Origin: Cliona cf. orientalis
Lineage: Eukaryota; Porifera; Demospongiae; Clionaida; Clionaidae
Assembly: GCA_963930775.1 (NCBI GenBank)
Contig: OZ005698.1
Span: 7,198,501-7,262,500 of the forward strand
Reading direction: 5' to 3'
DNA length: 64,000 bases
In this document: positions 2,430 to 19,216 of the stretch, piece after piece
Layout: every line of letters starts with the position of its first letter
Numbering within the stretch: position 1 is the stretch's first letter
Notes under the pieces: model-generated
The model's database searches: none
What the model was told of the DNA's origin: nothing
Seen by the model: only the letters and a program-made list of their open reading frames with translations
Program-made: the position numbers and the translations under genes

Positions 2430-3775
2430 TTATTACCTAGTATTTAGGAGTGTGGTCTATCTACATTACAAATCCATCAGCATTGTTATTTGATATTATC
2501 TCACCATGCACTATAGTCTTGTGAACCAACTACCCAGCACTGCAGAAGTAGGAGGGTGTGGTTCATGAGAATAATCATGCACATGGATATGTGGTACTAT
2601 GCTGATATTAACATTGACAATGATTGCAATAAGTTTAACGACCATTACCGATTAAGCTCAATATAGGTAAAGGTCGTCGAATCATTGAGCCACATTGTAC
2701 GTTCAGTTTACACCTTTCTATGCAAATATGTATAAAGCTGAACTGATAACCATCTATTAAAGTAAATACTCTTACACTATTTCTAGTAGGCATGGGGGTA
2801 TCACTGAGCTCGAGACTAAACCATAGGACCTGGACCTAGCTATAGCCACAGGAACCATGCCATGGAGAACCCCCTTTCATATGGTCATTGAGAATTGAGG
2901 GAAAAATCTCTCCCTCTTCTTATCGTTGTCTCCATCAACTGTAGGAGTTATCCAGACTCTTTTAGGTGCCACACCCTTGGTGCAAGGCCTACAACTTAAT
3001 GTGGTATTATGCATGCATTGAATGTAAATAAAGCACGAGTGGCAAGAATCACCTGGTTCAAGGTTTATCATGGTATGCATGTGCCCATCGGTAAGTATGT
3101 TTTTGAGTTAGCCTTACACTTAATATAGCAAAGTTCTGTGTGCTAGCTGCACAATTATTATGCTGGTATATAAACAATATTAATTGAAATCACTGGTTAT
3201 TAATTTTGCCAGTATATTATAGTCAGCTAGCAAGCAGAATAATATTATTACTCTTGGCTTCCATACTATCAGTGACACACTTAATATCTATAGAGTGTGT
3301 ATGTGACCCAATTGGTTCTGTATGCCATTAAAATTTCTTCCAGGAACTGTTACAGTAGCTTCTGTACTGCATTCATTAGGAACTTCTCTGTAGTACAATA
3401 GTACCGGTATGTGTTGATCTTTGTGTTTAGTAGCTATACCCTGTTAATGTGCTGTTGCTAGGTTGTGCTTTCACTTGTGTGTGCTAATGTGCCAACTATA
3501 TATCTGTATGGATGTGCCGTTGCTATGTTTGCTGTGTTAACGTGTTACTATGTGCTTGGTTTGTATAATATAAGACGAGCAAATATTGTGTATTAGAATC
3601 ATCATATAGTATCGTGCTATCATTCTATTATTCTATCATAAGTTACCATTGCCGCTATTATTCAGTGTACAGTTTGGTAAAAGCCCAGCAACTAATATCG
3701 TTACACCAAGTTCCTTGAGACGTATTTTTTGGAGAATTTCTTTAATTGCTAATTCACTTCATCACCTCACTAATT
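2430..3775. other. Spacer between the tandem ZU5-Death copies
   Basis: No exon found. Contains the flank repeat at 2871-3060, which is shared with the region after the second gene and shows that the duplicated block includes downstream DNA. The rest is AT-rich with T-rich stretches and a small internal near-repeat around 3450-3540 (GTTGCTAGGTTG-like and GTTGCTATGTTT-like). It probably carries the promoter of the downstream copy, but no TATA or initiator could be assigned. Confidence 0.4.
2871..3060. repeat. Flank repeat, copy 1 of the ZU5-Death duplication
   Basis: Similar to 6259-6640. Shared landmarks in the same order are CCTTTC.TATGGTCATTGA, GAATTGAGGGAAAA, TCTCCCTCTTCTTA, TGTCTCCATC, GACTGTAG-like, and GCCTACAACTTA. 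In the second copy an extra segment splits the block. This is direct sequence evidence that duplication covered gene plus 3' flank. Confidence 0.7.
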
Positions 3776-5929
3776 ATGGCATTGTGTCCCACAAATATCA
3801 CTTCAGTTCCATTCCTCACTAAAGTCGAAGTATTGACCTGTGACTCGTCCGGCTGTGAATATTACAACTACGACCATGATATCACACTGAGAATCCCAGG
3901 TGATGCTATTCCACCTGGTATGGTTATTCACTTGGAGGTAGCTGTTGCACTGTATGGCCCATTTCAGTTTCCTGATGGATCGTGTCCTATTTCACCCATC
4001 CTCTGGTTATGTATTCAAGAAAATGTCGATCTCAGAAAACCGATTGATATAATACTCCCTCATTTTCTAACGGATGCTAAGAACATTGGAATTCGTTTTG
4101 CTAAAGCTGATCATAAGCAGTATGCTACAGATGAATTTGGACGAAATCAGTACATCTTCGAGCCACTCGAGACAGCATTTAATACCTACAAAGAAAGAAA
4201 TCAAAACTATGGAATTCTGTCTACTCAGCATTGCTGCCTTTTATGTATAACATCCAATGATCCTCAGATCAGCCCTGATTTTGCACTAAAGGCTGGATAC
4301 TATCTCTGGTGTATTGAGAAACCATCCTCACATTCTTTGACATCAAGAGCTCGTGATACACTTCATTTTTGTGCTACATTTTGCCTTCCCACATGTAGAG
4401 AGGTCAGTATACAGTATGCAATGGTAATTAAGACAAACCAATTCGGTTTATCGTCATAAAATTTTCACAAGCTGTAGCACTTGTATACACTACAAGCCCT
4501 AAGATCTTTTCATAGAAAAAATCTCAGGACTTGAGTGGGGATCGAACCCTCACACTCACATCTCACAAAATTTTCAATTTGTATGCATATGGGCAGGTGG
4601 TCATTATTCAGATTTTAAACTAGTAGAGTGTTAGAAGTGCTACGTTCAAATTATGATAACCGAGGCTCTGCCTTAAATTCTAATTGCAGCACTCGAGGGG
4701 GGACCAAATATTCTAACATCTGATGTAGCTAGGTGGAAACGACAAACTACAGATTCAGTTTGCTGCTCACCATAATATTATTGTGGACTGTTATTTCACA
4801 CACGCACGCAGATAGTGAAGTCACAATACACAGAGAAGGAAGGATACTATATTAGAAGACCGCCTAAGATGTTTACGTTTAAAGATTCAGGAGATGCCTC
4901 GGAGTCTTGTCTGTCTATCGAAGTTAAACATGAGGGTTGTGTGATGGCAGCTGATCCAGAAAATAAGCAGGTTAGAGAGTAGATAGTATAATGTTAAACG
5001 TGGCAGCCAGTAGGCCCAGCTTTTAAGTTTAGTAACGTTAATGTATATAGGAGGAAGACACGAACATATGTAATACAAATGCTATGCATAGTGGTATATA
5101 ATAGTTAGCCTCGCTAGATATTGTAAGGAAGGGTAATTAAAATGTTAATTTCTCACTATTGCTAATGTCTTATGTGTAGATCAAAGCATCACAGATATAC
5201 TTCTGGGATAAGCGTGACAAGCTAGAGCTGCTTCAAGCTGATAAAGTGTATCCCCCTAGTGTGACGTTAACACTAGAAGTGTTGGAAAACCATCCAGTCA
5301 ATCTCTTGATCAAATTCAATGGATCTACAGCAGACAATGACATGGGCATGGAAATTATGCTTCCATTAGGTTTGTAGACATGAGTCACTTACAGTACCAT
5401 AACTATAATTATTACTATAATTATTTGCAACTTCTGTAGCAAGAAATTCTCACGTAGGGCCTAGTTCCTCGACCACTATTGACCATGAAAGTCATTCCAT
5501 GGAACCTCGTTCTTCCACTCAAGTGCAAACAGCAGTTACTCCTCCCGCTGGTCAGAGTGAGCCACAGCCAACTGCAACAGGTGTATAGCTCAAGCGCTTT
5601 GTACCTTTTTATTATTATCTATTATTAATTGCTGTGCTCTTTTTTCAGGCCAACTACTAGGCATTGATGACCTAGATGCTGTCATACAGACCATCTGGGA
5701 TGCCAAGGAGAAGTGGTTCTTCATCGGTCTCAAGCTGGGCATTAAGAAAGACAAGCTGGAGGATATTAAACGAGAACACAGTAACGTTGATGACCGCTTC
5801 ACAGAGATGCTCATGAATTGGCTAAGTAACGATGAGGCAACATACACTTGCACATGGGAAGCCATGGCCGTAGCACTGAAGTCACCTTCAGTGAGGCTTG
5901 GACATTTAGCAGATAAGCTACCAAAGTGA
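3776..5929 (+). CDS. ZU5-Death domain adaptor protein, intact copy
   Basis: Exons 3776-4402, 4812-4970, 5180-5369, 5440-5580 and 5649-5929 join in frame (phases 0, 0, 1, 1) into 466 codons including TGA, giving 465 residues. All introns are GT-AG, 68 to 409 bases. Residues about 28-100 are a ZU5 domain (LRIPGDAIPPGMVIHLEVAV, SPILWLC, then KPIDIILPH, the typical end). Residues about 100-325 resemble the UPA-type region that follows ZU5 in UNC5, PIDD and ankyrin, here with a cysteine-rich stretch (QHCCLLC, FCATFCLPTC). A Ser/Thr/Pro/Gln linker encoded by exon 4 leads to a C-terminal death domain, residues about 373-465 (W-FFIGLKLGIKK, LEDIKREH, MLMNWL, WEAMAVAL). No signal peptide or membrane span is seen, so it is probably cytosolic. 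By family, it likely docks death-fold partners in apoptosis or innate signalling. The start is the first in-frame ATG; an upstream exon joined at the CAG just before 3794 is an alternative. Confidence 0.85.
4468..4566 (-). mobile_element. tRNA-derived SINE fragment in intron 1 of the ZU5-Death gene
   Basis: Minus strand holds a pol III B box (GGTTCGATCCCC, plus-strand 4537-4548) followed by CACTCAAGTCCTGAGA and a tail with CTTGTAG..GTATACAAGTGC. The same 3' module occurs at 55889-56009, where an A box is also present. The insertion is flanked by direct repeats AAAATTTTCA at 4458-4467 and 4567-4576. The paralogous intron after 1262 lacks the insert and reads straight through ATAAATTTTTCATTTTG. 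It therefore inserted after the gene duplication, or was lost from copy 1. It is 5'-truncated, with no A box seen. Confidence 0.7.
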
Positions 5930-15006: not shown

Positions 15007-16998
15007 TCACCTGGTCTGCTGTTCATCTTTCAAACTTAGAAAATCTGTGAAAAGCAAATCAATACTCATCACAATGTATGTTGTGTATTATAATATGGGG
15101 TACAGCTGGTGTTGATGACTGATCACACTGCCAACTCAACAGCTTTTAGTTTATGCAAACTATACCTATAAAATGCATCGCTATGACTCCCAATCAGCTT
15201 GAGGGTCTCCACCACAACTATGACACGCTAGACTAAGTGTGGGCCGTACAAACAGCTGTATAAACCTCAAACCTCAAATTGTCCCCGCCACCATGGGGGG
15301 GGGGGGGGGGGGGTGGAAGAGAGTGTGTGTGAGAGAGAGAGAGAGGGTGGGGGCAGAGAGAGCATGTTGGAGTAGAGCACTAACCAGTGGTTTGGAATTA
15401 TTTAGTCAGGCACTAAAAATTTTTTTGCTTAAAACTCACCGTCCAGACTTCTTGCCCTGAGGAGTTGAGTGTAGCCATCTGAACATATTTCTTCCTTTGT
15501 TTTCAGCTTCATGTAGCGGGACCGTTTGCCAGTGCTGCTACTCTCCTCCTTATGGTGATCTTGCCTTGATTGCTGGCGCCGCACTGGGTCGATCTCTGCA
15601 TAAGTTAACAATAATCATGACAATAGTGTGCTAAAAGGAATGCACTGCAATAGCTATGTGCCATTTAGGCTATTTGCGATGCTATAAACGATTGGCCAAA
15701 CCAAACTCTCAATTTAAACAAGGCTTAATGCATACATGTATGTCCATTCTCGTACAATCGGACTTCATCTTTAGACAGCTGTGTATGCTGCAAACTTACG
15801 GTCGAGTGCCTCCTGAGAGGGAGTGTACTTGTGCCTTATATCTCCCACTCCGCTATCACCTGTGCCTCCAGAATAGTCGCCCGAATATTCGGCGCTTGCA
15901 GTCAGGCACGACGTAGATGCGCTCTGGGGGATGTGGAGTGCTGCAGTAAGTGATGAAGGTCCATGTGTCTCCTGTTGACAGAAAATGAACTGATGGGGAG
16001 TAGATGGTGTATACGTAGCACTGCTGAGGGAAGAGCAAGGGGATGAAACTTGGGTGGGGACTCGCTTCTTTCTCGGTAGTGGGGTCGGTTTCCTGGGTTG
16101 TGTAGGGCTGGGAGATGACTCTGGCGTCAGAGAGTGATGGTGGGGATTCAGAGACTCCACTCGGGCAGGTGGCGGAGGAGAGAAGGAGGCTTCGAGTTTC
16201 TTTGGATCTTCATCGGTTGGAGAGTTATCTGTATTAATTTTAATTATTATGAGATGGTTATCTAGGAACTTCACATGCAGCTTGAGTCAAAATTGTGTCG
16301 CATGGCAAGTGCTACTAACAGGTGGCACATAAATGCTATAATATCATACCTTGGCTGTCGTTGCCACTGCTTTCTTCATCGCCATACTTGAGGAGTACAC
16401 CAGCCTCCTCTAGATTTTTGCGCAGTGTCCTGGCTATTGCATCACCATCAGCCGCAACCAACAAAAATGTTTGCTCTATCTGAGCCTGATCTTCACTTTC
16501 CAGTGCATTTCTCATTAAAAGGGCAACCTGGGAGAACTGTGTTAGTAGGGTGGCATAGCTCTCTTGCAACTTGCGAATCCTCTCTGTTGAATTTTTCACC
16601 ATCTGTGCAGGTGAACGGTCTGTTGTTGGTGCTTGCTGCTTACCACTTCTCTTTCCCGGTTTTTTCTTGTCTAGTCTTTTCATAGCCTCCTTGTATAAGG
16701 AGTTCTTCTTGTAGCTTTGAACAATGTCCAGTAAATTCTTCTTTCCAATGGTGTCCAATAATAGCTCTAAGAAATCGAGCTTTAGCGGACTGATATGCCC
16801 CAGCGATTCTAGCGTACTCATGAGGTGAAGTCGGACAGTTGGCTTTCCTGGTTCTGGATGGCAGGTTGGTGACGGTAACCTGGCGGCAAATGCGATCTGC
16901 TGGCAATCATCGAGACTCAATTCGTTGGCTACCTTGAGCAGCATGATGCGATAGCTCGTCTCCAGTTCAACGTTCACCGAACCCACTATTCCAGCCAT
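15007..16998 (-). CDS. Death-effector-domain adaptor with disordered tyrosine-motif tail (minus copy)
   Basis: Exons on the minus strand are 16998-16350, 16228-15800, 15595-15440 and 15044-15007, joined in phase 1 throughout by GT-AG introns. They predict 423 residues and a TGA at 15009-15007. Start is the ATG in GAGATGGC at 16998; an in-frame ATG-less extension upstream is taken as 5' UTR. Residues about 14-98 form a death effector domain (LLKVANELSLDDCQQIAF, then GHISPLKLDFLELLLDTIGK and NLLDIV, the DED helix 5-6 pattern). Residues about 130-200 are helical (RIRKLQESYATLLTQFSQVA..). The rest is disordered: Pro/Ser-rich, basic PLPRKKR, then SAEYSGDYSGGTGDSGVGD, RYMKLK and GYTQLL. No enzyme domain follows, so it is an adaptor-like protein, not a caspase. 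Probably a paralogue of the divergent gene at 17484. Intron 3 carries a G19 run. Confidence 0.82.
15295..15313. repeat. Poly-G run of 19 followed by GAGA tract, in a DED-gene intron
   Basis: Uninterrupted plus-strand Gs, followed by GTGTGTGAGAGAGAGAGAGA. It lies inside intron 3 (15045-15439) of the minus-strand DED gene, so the transcript carries a poly-C run. Confidence 0.95.
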
Positions 16999-17483
16999 CT
17001 CTCCTCCTTCAGCAATACTGTTTGCAGACGATAAAAAGGAATGCTTTATAGCACTGAAGTTTCCGCTCCCATCCCTGAGCCTTTTTTGGGGCGATGCGCG
17101 TGTACGATCTCGCCCCATTAATTTTAGGGGTGGAGTCTGGGACCGGGGATCGATCAATGTCACGATCACATGCGTACGTACAGCCACGTACCAGGCCCTG
17201 AGGAGGTAATGCTAGTGCGCGCACGCGCATATGGGATAATATGGATTCCTCAAGCTTGGCAATTGGGTGGGACGAGACTAATGGCCGGCTGGCCGGCCAT
17301 AGGCGCATGGCAGCGCGGATGTATGTATTATTATGTACATGTACTATATACGTGTCATCTGTACTACGTAATTAGGTAAATCCCCGGCGCTAGGGCTGGC
17401 CGGCCCGATTTGATAAAAGCAGCTGGAGCAATTCAAGCTAACAACGAAAAAAGCTCGGACAAAAGTGTAGCTAAATCCAAGCC
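16999..17483. promoter_or_regulatory. Shared bidirectional promoter region of the two DED genes
   Basis: The two start codons are 485 bases apart and point away from each other. The interval is CpG- and GC-rich relative to the window (GCGATGCGCG, GTGCGCGCACGCGC, two GGCCGGCC-type palindromes at about 17283-17300 and near 17398). For the plus gene, TTGATAAAAGC at about 17409 could serve as a weak TATA-like element. The head-to-head layout makes co-expression likely; that is inference. Confidence 0.6.
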
Positions 17484-19216
17484 ATGTCTGATTCTCAAGC
17501 GTATGAGTATCGAGCGTTCTTGCTACAAATAGCAGAAAAACTCTCCCAAGAGGATAGCAAGAAAATCGCTTACCTTGAGGACTTGCCATCGGATATGGAA
17601 AGCAAGCCACCCCTGACGTTGCTTATGCAGCTGGAAATGCGCGGCAGAGTGTCCGCCTCAAAGCCAGACGATCTGGCAAAAATACTGAAGATGATCGGTC
17701 GGCACGATTTAGCGAAGAAAGTCAAGGACTTTGCGAAGCAGCAGAAAAAGGGAAGACCAACAGCGCAAAGCGAGCTCCAAAGACTCGATCATGCCACCAT
17801 GAGACTAAACGCGAGCCTCCAGGTTACGCTGCTGCAGTGTGAAATTCTGATGCAACAGGTGGTAAATCTGAGAGAAGAGGCTGAAAGGTCGGAGGGTTAC
17901 AAGCGAGTGGAAGAAGTGGTTGGTGAGGCTCACGCTATAGCCGAACATTTTTATCGAAAGCTCCAGTACGCGTCGAAGTTCGTGCTCAGGGAGCAAAATA
18001 GTGACAGCAACCCTTGCTCGCCCGATTCGCAGCTCTCGAGCCTTGATTTCGAAGCAGAGTCTCAGGCTTCGGTTCTGACGTCCGCGCCAGCGACATCATC
18101 ACTTCTAAATCAGTCACCAGCTGGATGTAGTCGCCTGACACACGCAGTCAACTCCAGCGAGCTCAGAGCAGCTGTGGACAATCTCAAATCACAGTCTGCA
18201 TCGCTGCCTAGACCTTTCCGAGGTACCACCCAAGCACAGCTCACAGCCGCCTCCGCTAGTGGCAGTGGCACTACTACTAAACAACCTCTCCTGCCACCCG
18301 CAAACCAAAGACACCCCCACCTTCCTCAGGTGGACAACACACCAGCTCCAGCTCCAGCTCCAGCTTTAGCTAGACATGGCTGCAGCCTTCCTAGATCTCA
18401 AGGTGGTTCTCCTGGTCCTTTGCTACTGCCCAGCAGTGCAGTGACAGCTACAGCAGGAGATCATACAGGCAGGCACCTGGTGCAAGGGTGGGAGGAGCAG
18501 CCTCGCTCAGGAATCACCGTACAACAGCTGGTCACGGGAAGGCTAAAACCAACCCCTCCTCCGAAGCCGAAAATCAAAGGCGACCAGAAAGTCAAGCAGA
18601 CTGATAAAGACAAGGATAAGACTGATTCACCGGTACCCAATAATGGACTCCACGCAACACAGAAGGTGGACGCGCAGAATACTAAACCCAAGGATGCGGA
18701 TCCGGACTACGACTATGTGCAATCATCTTCCTACACTGGGACAGGTGACAGTGGATTCGGGGATTGTAGGGAGTTTCTGCGAGTTTCCGTGTCTGATGAA
18801 TACCAGCTCCCCAGTCAATTGCAAGGAGCACAACATCCACCACGTGCAGCACACATACATGCCGCAGGACAAAAACAGCAGCAGCAGCAGCGACTGCAGG
18901 GGGGAAGCCTGGATGCTTCCTACTCAGGAGTGAATAGATCAGCTGAGCCTCGCTACTACAAATCACTCCAGAGGGATGCCATACAAGGTAAACTGTCGTT
19001 AAAAGTCATCAATACCTAATATGCATATATGGTATGCTAAATTACAGGGAGTAGCTTGTATATACCTGAGCATTCATGAATTTTCACAAGTCTTACATCA
19101 TCATTAATAATATTTTTATCTACACACATTAATTTTATCCCTCTACAGAAATACATTACAGTCCACCAGTGGCAACAACTCAGGTGCAGTACATGAACTT
19201 TCCACACAAGAAATGA
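17484..19216 (+). CDS. Death-effector-domain adaptor with disordered tyrosine-motif tail (plus copy)
   Basis: Exon 17484-18987 plus micro-exon 19149-19216 (GT-AG, phase 1) predict 523 residues ending at TGA 19214-19216. Residues about 6-86 are a death effector domain: YRAFLLQIAEKLSQED, LMQLEMRGRVS, then DDLAKILKMIGRHDLAKKV, whose IGRHDL ending is typical of FADD and caspase-8 DEDs. Residues about 90-170 are helical or coiled coil. The tail (170-523) is disordered, rich in Ser, Pro, Gln and Ala, with an APAPAPA run, a PxxP stretch (PTPPPKPKIK), a poly-Q run and tyrosine motifs: DPDYDYVQ, SYTGTGDSGFGD, DEYQLP, RYYKSLQ and, from the micro-exon, QYMNF near the end. Reading through the intron would end at 19019 with KLSLKVINT, a possible alternative C-terminus. 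No catalytic domain, so likely an adaptor in death-receptor or innate-type signalling. Shares its promoter region with the gene at 16998. Confidence 0.85.

Follow-up and report, generated by a model that had tools for sequence, protein, structure and literature searches.

The window, the whole 64,000-nucleotide stretch C10:7198501-7262500 of the Cliona cf. orientalis genome (216,785,154 bases, 149 contigs), contains two divergently oriented genes, here called PLUS and MINUS after their strands. Each encodes an N-terminal death effector domain (DED), a predicted two-helix hairpin, and a long tail containing Pro, Ser, and Tyr, which from its composition is probably disordered. The features of both genes are given in Table 1. 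The PLUS protein has 523 aa, and one open exon of 501 codons spans the DED, the hairpin, and about 320 of the approximately 340 tail residues. MINUS has four exons and a tail of approximately 205 residues, in a protein of 423 aa, or 463 aa if an upstream in-frame ATG is used. The start at 16998 is favored because the alignment with relatives on C10 (MAGIVGS) and C5 (MSAVIGS) begins at that Met, and with this start the genes begin 485 bases apart, as stated in a preliminary description of this DNA made from its letters.

All four introns of PLUS and MINUS are in phase 1 and have GT/AG ends. The preliminary description drew attention to a tiny last exon in each gene, joined in phase 1; a phase-1 donor was indeed found at the matching place in relatives of both genes (the donors of PLUS-like genes were read by eye), but no homologue of either tiny acceptor exon was identified, and therefore the last MINUS exon, of 38 bases, is only predicted. 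A poly-G run followed by GA-rich repeats lies in the last MINUS intron (window 15294-15360) and may make the last exon harder to verify in transcripts or assemblies.

Table 1. Features of the PLUS and MINUS genes and of the neighboring sequence, in window positions (pLDDT, predicted local distance difference test; o/e, observed/expected).
Feature	Position	Strand	Basis or remark
PLUS exon 1: DED, hairpin, most of tail	17484-18987	+	gene model
PLUS DED, RHDL present	17508-17741	+	
PLUS two-helix hairpin, residues 100-172	17781-17999	+	AlphaFold2; block pLDDT 58-74 over residues 101-170
PLUS RLKPTPPPKPKIK, SH3-ligand-like	18540-18578	+	sequence; SH3 reading from general knowledge
PLUS DSG motif YTGTGDSGFGD	18732-18764	+	regex match
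PLUS relaxed tandem Tyr motif YSGV-x8-YKSL	18921-18968	+	fails strict YxxL/I pair
PLUS last exon EIHYSPPVATTQVQYMNFPHKK	19149-19216	+	gene model; donor position conserved
MINUS exon 1: DED and helical hairpin	16350-16998	-	in-frame ATG upstream at 17118 also possible
MINUS DED, KKNL replacing RxDL	16705-16953	-	
MINUS two-helix hairpin	16378-16611	-	AlphaFold2 helices 130-168, 171-207; block pLDDT 61-80, residues 131-200
MINUS exon 2: Pro/Ser-rich tail	15800-16228	-	
MINUS RKPTPLPRKK, SH3-ligand-like	16065-16094	-	sequence; SH3 reading from general knowledge; related RKRPVPVPRKK in MINUS-B
MINUS DSG motif YSGGTGDSGVGD	15840-15875	-	regex match
MINUS exon 3: Tyr exon	15440-15595	-	
MINUS tandem YMKL-x10-YTQL, ITAM-like	15462-15515	-	such a pair in 0.8% of shuffles
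MINUS last exon, predicted: 12 codons (split one included), then stop	15007-15044	-	splice signals; donor conserved
Divergent gap shared by PLUS and MINUS, 485 bases	16999-17483	.	GC 0.505, CpG o/e 1.01
ZU5/Death matches	317-928, 2112-2426, 3746-4456, 5561-5926	+	Pfam

Identity and predicted fold of the DEDs

In the full-length models the DEDs scored 42.8 and 38.1 bits relative to the Pfam cut-off of 35.9 (PF01335), with one DED per protein, and so the N-terminal DEDs of the preliminary description were recovered by profile search. No other Pfam domain was detected at E<=1 in PLUS or at E<=0.1 in full-length MINUS; the MINUS exon-1 open reading frame (ORF) gave one match far below the cut-off (YlmH_1st, E 0.18). 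Pfam gave 65 DED matches genome-wide, both window ORFs among them. Matches are grouped on C10 (7.04-7.22 Mb) and on C4 (11.16-11.24 Mb), and at two places on C9 a DED lies 1.1-1.4 kb upstream of a caspase match.

AlphaFold2 predicted all six DED helices in PLUS (from an alignment of two sequences only) and five in MINUS, where the short helix 3 is a loop; in each model a two-helix hairpin follows. A death fold was therefore predicted for both, with the expected six helices complete in the PLUS model only, and the description of a helical segment followed by a Pro/Ser/Tyr tail of 200-350 residues agrees with both models. The top structural matches of both DEDs were those of vFLIP, caspase-8/cFLIP, and PEA-15. 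In the structure search with PLUS, 25 of the first 26 rows were DEDs and the remaining one was a pyrin domain; plain Foldseek with the PLUS model returned no match at E<=0.001. By sequence, the closest DEDs were those of cFLIP, viral FLIP, and the caspase-8 prodomain (E 2.3e-5 for PLUS and 0.0095 for MINUS).

Despite this similarity, the domain layout differs, as the preliminary description had maintained with regard to FADD, caspase-8, and FLIP. The proteins cFLIP, vFLIP, and caspase-8 have tandem DEDs, and the cellular forms add a caspase or caspase-like domain, whereas in PLUS and MINUS the DED is single and a protease domain is missing; the genome has 47 caspase matches, all of them outside the window. 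A Death domain after the DED, as in FADD, was not matched in either full-length model. TRADD-N after the DED, the layout of DEDD/DEDD2 and of Death plus TRADD-N proteins, gave no match in either protein with Pfam, a search that used no profile dedicated to it, and the segment in question is predicted to be helical.

The RxDL surface motif of DEDs is present as RHDL in PLUS and is replaced by KKNL in MINUS and by KQNL in MINUS-B, a MINUS relative in the same region; relatives on C4 and C5 have RNDL and RRDL, respectively. These properties bear on the possibility that the proteins are decoy inhibitors, in which a lone DED caps caspase-8-like DED chains in the style of FLIP or PEA-15 and the tail only sets level and place. 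The best sequence and structure matches (cFLIP, vFLIP, and PEA-15 DEDs), the lack of an effector domain, and the loss of RxDL from MINUS are as such an inhibitor would have them, and PEA-15 is a precedent, being described as a DED with a phosphorylated tail that binds FADD (PMC4588177). However, PLUS keeps RHDL, and the tails, at 5 to 9 times the 40-residue length of that of PEA-15, have several docking-like motifs besides the serine motif described below. We regard a decoy function as doubtful, although it is the main rival interpretation.

Serine and tyrosine motifs of the tails

As judged by comparison of the tail sequences, the most conserved element is a D-S-G serine motif. It reads SYTGTGDSGFGD in PLUS, SYTGDSGFSDSRAF in three PLUS-like genes, YSGGTGDSGVGD in MINUS, and YSGSANDSGYGSGS in MINUS-B; YTGDSGFED follows the gene at 7151898, and DFTGSVDSGIDV[KR]EF follows two genes of the MCTT subfamily. 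The corresponding elements are TSDSGVGD on C4 and GDDSGYGCSGD on C5. In 10 tail segments that were picked by eye and aligned, D-S-G never varies and the D after it hardly does. The tyrosine motifs emphasized in the preliminary description do recur, but they are less conserved than this element.

The specificity of the long form, [YF][ST]G.{0,5}DSG[FVYILM], was evaluated on six-frame ORFs of >=20 aa (9,560 ORFs, 380,230 residues) from 289,015 bases in 19 stretches around DED genes. Nine matches were found, compared to 0.15 predicted from shuffled ORFs and none with the reversed motif. Each of the nine is on the same strand as a cluster DED ORF and 1.0-4.9 kb downstream from it, so that 9 of the 10 DED ORFs are served; stretches within 5 kb downstream of DED ORFs make up 19% of the stranded positions of the 127 kb scanned for the cluster. 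These figures represent specificity and not a blind test, because the tails had already been seen when the pattern and the 5-kb limit were chosen. The C4 and C5 relatives are not matched by the long form. A codon pattern for YTGDSGF, which excludes the window's own motifs (YTGTGDSGF and YSGGTGDSGV), gave six hits in the whole genome, four of them in cluster tails, and one hit when run backwards as a control; the two other hits fall in open frames that, on inspection, do not resemble DED tails.

The position of the motif also bears on whether the genes are expressed as modeled, or instead yield short DED-only proteins with the tail ORFs belonging elsewhere. The 38-base last MINUS exon is a prediction, and no tail motif was recognized in the 6 kb downstream of two PLUS copies (7043610 and 7063493), both of which would fit such mis-modeling. 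On the other hand, the PLUS DED, hairpin, and about 320 tail residues share one open exon, the donors are conserved, and every copy of the motif lies on the DED strand, 1.0-4.9 kb downstream, and so we consider this explanation highly improbable.

A strict tandem tyrosine motif (YxxL/I-x6-12-YxxL/I) was present in five of the seven tail pieces tested, namely those of MINUS, the three PLUS-like genes, and the C5 relative. Shuffles of these five pieces yield such a pair in 0.3-2.6% of cases, and the six-frame background contains 117 such strings in 380,230 residues. MINUS fits the tyrosine part of the immunoreceptor tyrosine-based activation motif (ITAM) consensus without its upstream acidic residue, and PLUS, with YSGV, does not fit it. 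Pro-rich, SH3-ligand-like stretches were found in both window tails, in MINUS-B, and in a C6 relative. The proposed link to tyrosine-kinase or SH2/SH3 signaling thus receives a tandem YxxL in MINUS but only the relaxed YxxV..YxxL in PLUS, and the wiring itself is conjectural.

The DED cluster around the pair

The preliminary description overlooked that the pair is part of a multi-gene cluster. When an unbroken 127-kb stretch (7135500-7262500) was scanned with a DED profile derived from this genome, 10 DED ORFs were found, PLUS and MINUS among them. A second divergent pair in this region has the same two subfamilies on the respective strands, 320 bases apart (MINUS-B start 7176058, PLUS-like start 7176379); its PLUS-like member has four extra bases inside the DED relative to two relatives, which break the frame. 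In a DED tree with 8 of 13 inner branches drawn open, MINUS and MINUS-B group together (97/95) inside a MINUS clade (98/98).

Both divergent gaps are unusually rich in CpG and in GC. Within the 127 kb, the GC and CpG values of the 485-base gap are reached together by 0.5% of windows of that length, and those of the 320-base gap by 1.2% of 320-base windows; for the six other cluster DED genes, such GC was found in the upstream 400 bases of none, and a CpG ratio >0.9 in two. The suggested co-expression of PLUS and MINUS is consistent with these gaps and with the recurrence of the divergent arrangement, but the two gaps share no similarity in a blastn comparison, the plus-strand partner of the second pair is frame-broken, and no DED neighbor lies in the approximately 3 kb upstream of the MINUS relatives on C4 and C5.

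The ratio of nonsynonymous to synonymous substitution (dN/dS) was 0.10-0.62 across 12 unsaturated pairs: 0.10 for the PLUS DED relative to its nearest copy, 0.38 and 0.62 for two pairs involving the copy at 7063493, 0.27-0.31 for exon 1 of the three PLUS-like genes, and 0.20-0.33 for the MCTT subfamily. Synonymous sites are saturated between PLUS and the PLUS-like genes and among the MINUS relatives (proportions of differing sites 0.77-0.88 for synonymous, pS, and 0.32-0.41 for nonsynonymous, pN). Selection on these sequences is purifying, so the genes are taken to be real.

Duplication inside the local cluster is the best explanation for the origin of PLUS and MINUS, within an overall account that we hold with even confidence. 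It is also possible to view the whole as a birth-and-death immune gene family, in which head-to-head order arose by chance through duplication and the tails are alike through common ancestry and not function. Near-identical copies (89-95%), broken copies, a second cluster on C4, and divergent gaps that share no sequence would be expected of such a family. Yet D-S-G is invariant in all 10 segments picked by eye, although the lineages compared are 32-49% identical in the DED and helical segment and saturated at synonymous sites in the comparisons made, and there are two divergent pairs, both CpG-rich. This explanation is, in our judgment, quite unlikely.

Several further DED sequences were observed. 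Near-identical genes at C10:7148392, 7183629, and 7196212 share 89-95% of amino acids (dN/dS 0.20-0.33), and the third of these is without the long DSG motif. The PLUS DED copies at C10:7043610 and 7063493 are 82% and 64% identical, and the former has a stop and a frame change directly after the DED. A decayed MINUS-like copy with 7 stops is located at C4:6225289-6225795 (+). In the second cluster (C4:11157619-11241741, loci L015-L019), several members are extended N-terminally before the DED, and one DSGVGS string occurs between two DED ORFs on the same strand (L018 position 4771). On C1 and C12 (L002-L004, L007, L008), there are long single-frame DED ORFs of approximately 600 codons, several with two DED matches.

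To the left of the pair, ZU5 matches (20.6 and 22.3 bits, where the cut-off is 21) alternate with Death matches (28 and 20.9 bits, where it is 22.6); together they are probably two tandem ZU5...Death genes. An ORF of the same sequence type, recognized by eye, follows the second pair (C10:7179567-7180052), and therefore two kinds of death-fold genes seem to be interleaved.

Proposed function and comparison with known systems

The best reading of these data, to which we give an even chance, is that PLUS and MINUS are cytosolic DED-only scaffolding adaptors with phosphorylation switches in their tails. The DED would join or seed assemblies with DED proteins of the same genome, DED-caspases included, and the hairpin probably dimerizes or spaces the protein. 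The DSG-hydrophobic serine motif is probably a switch through which phosphorylation sets protein stability, as in IkB and beta-catenin, and MINUS-B has the strict DSGXXS form (DSGYGS). The Pro-rich stretch could be an SH3 ligand, and the C-terminal tyrosine motifs may be read by SH2 proteins once assembly brings many tails together. The CpG-rich gap between the two genes is probably a divergent promoter serving both. As possible readers of the tails, the genome contains one match to the beta-TrCP D-domain and 103 to SH2. A bolder version, which we think unlikely, is that an ITAM-like motif and an IkB-type DSG switch are displayed on the outside of DED filaments, such that the filament acts as a clustered "receptor" for tandem-SH2 kinases and is ended by beta-TrCP; this would be nature's equivalent of the artificial DED-SH2/PTB chimeras mentioned below.

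Several observations weigh against the adaptor interpretation. The regex was written post hoc and the scanned stretches were picked around DED genes. DSGXXS with both serines is not found in the window, where the copies (DSGFGD and DSGVGD) end in D, and the DSG exon of the three PLUS-like genes (dN/dS 0.48-0.51) is less constrained than exon 1. No IKK scaffold domain was found in the genome, a result that is not decisive for a split gene. The strict tandem YxxL is absent from PLUS and from MINUS-B, which has YMKL only. The hairpins of different subfamilies have no detectable homology. The MINUS model is without helix 3, and because RxDL is lost (KKNL), the MINUS DED may assemble differently.

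Many DED proteins have been reported in two haplosclerid sponges (PMC4704026) and seven in Dysidea avara (PMC12909245), and FADD and CASP8 of Amphimedon have been assayed, the adaptor being supersaturable (PMC13012725). In literature that took in few subscription papers, we met no DED adaptor described as having a conserved DSG motif or a tandem YxxL in its tail. The tail of PEA-15 comprises residues 91-130 with sites Ser104 and Ser116 (PMC4588177); by tail length, neither PLUS nor MINUS has this approximately 40-residue layout (sites equivalent to Ser104/Ser116 were not sought), and in contrast to PEA-15 there is a helical hairpin, DSG and tyrosine motifs, and several gene copies. BCL10, a death-fold filament former of the CBM signalosome whose tail recruits the next player (PMC8403095), is similar in design, but it has a CARD and a different, Ser/Thr-rich tail, and no homology is claimed.

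The Death-like plus TRADD-N proteins of Amphimedon and other marine animals are also a lineage-specific death-fold expansion, but they have TRADD-N and folded C-termini (ankyrin, SH3-LRR, SH2, kinase, caspase) where the proteins described here have a hairpin and motif tail (PMC8195603). Because Amphimedon death-fold proteins have SH3, SH2, and kinase C-termini (PMC8195603), readers for such a strip of tail motifs are plausible in sponges. The DSGXXS degron occurs in IkB, beta-catenin, and Mdm2 (PMC6027159); the DSG-hydrophobic core is shared, although the window copies end in D rather than S and are on a death-fold protein. The tandem YxxL spacing of 9-10 is shared with ITAMs, whereas here the motif is not on a receptor.

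Death-fold assemblies have mostly been described as reaching out via folded effector domains. If the adaptor interpretation is correct, a long motif tail in place of an effector domain would be a second way to wire such assemblies, and because the motifs are short and defined, it can be tested with peptides and point mutants. Artificial DED-SH2/PTB chimeras are reported to steer tyrosine kinase signaling toward apoptosis (PMC2575513); in the chimeras the reader is fused to the DED, whereas here it would be the tail.

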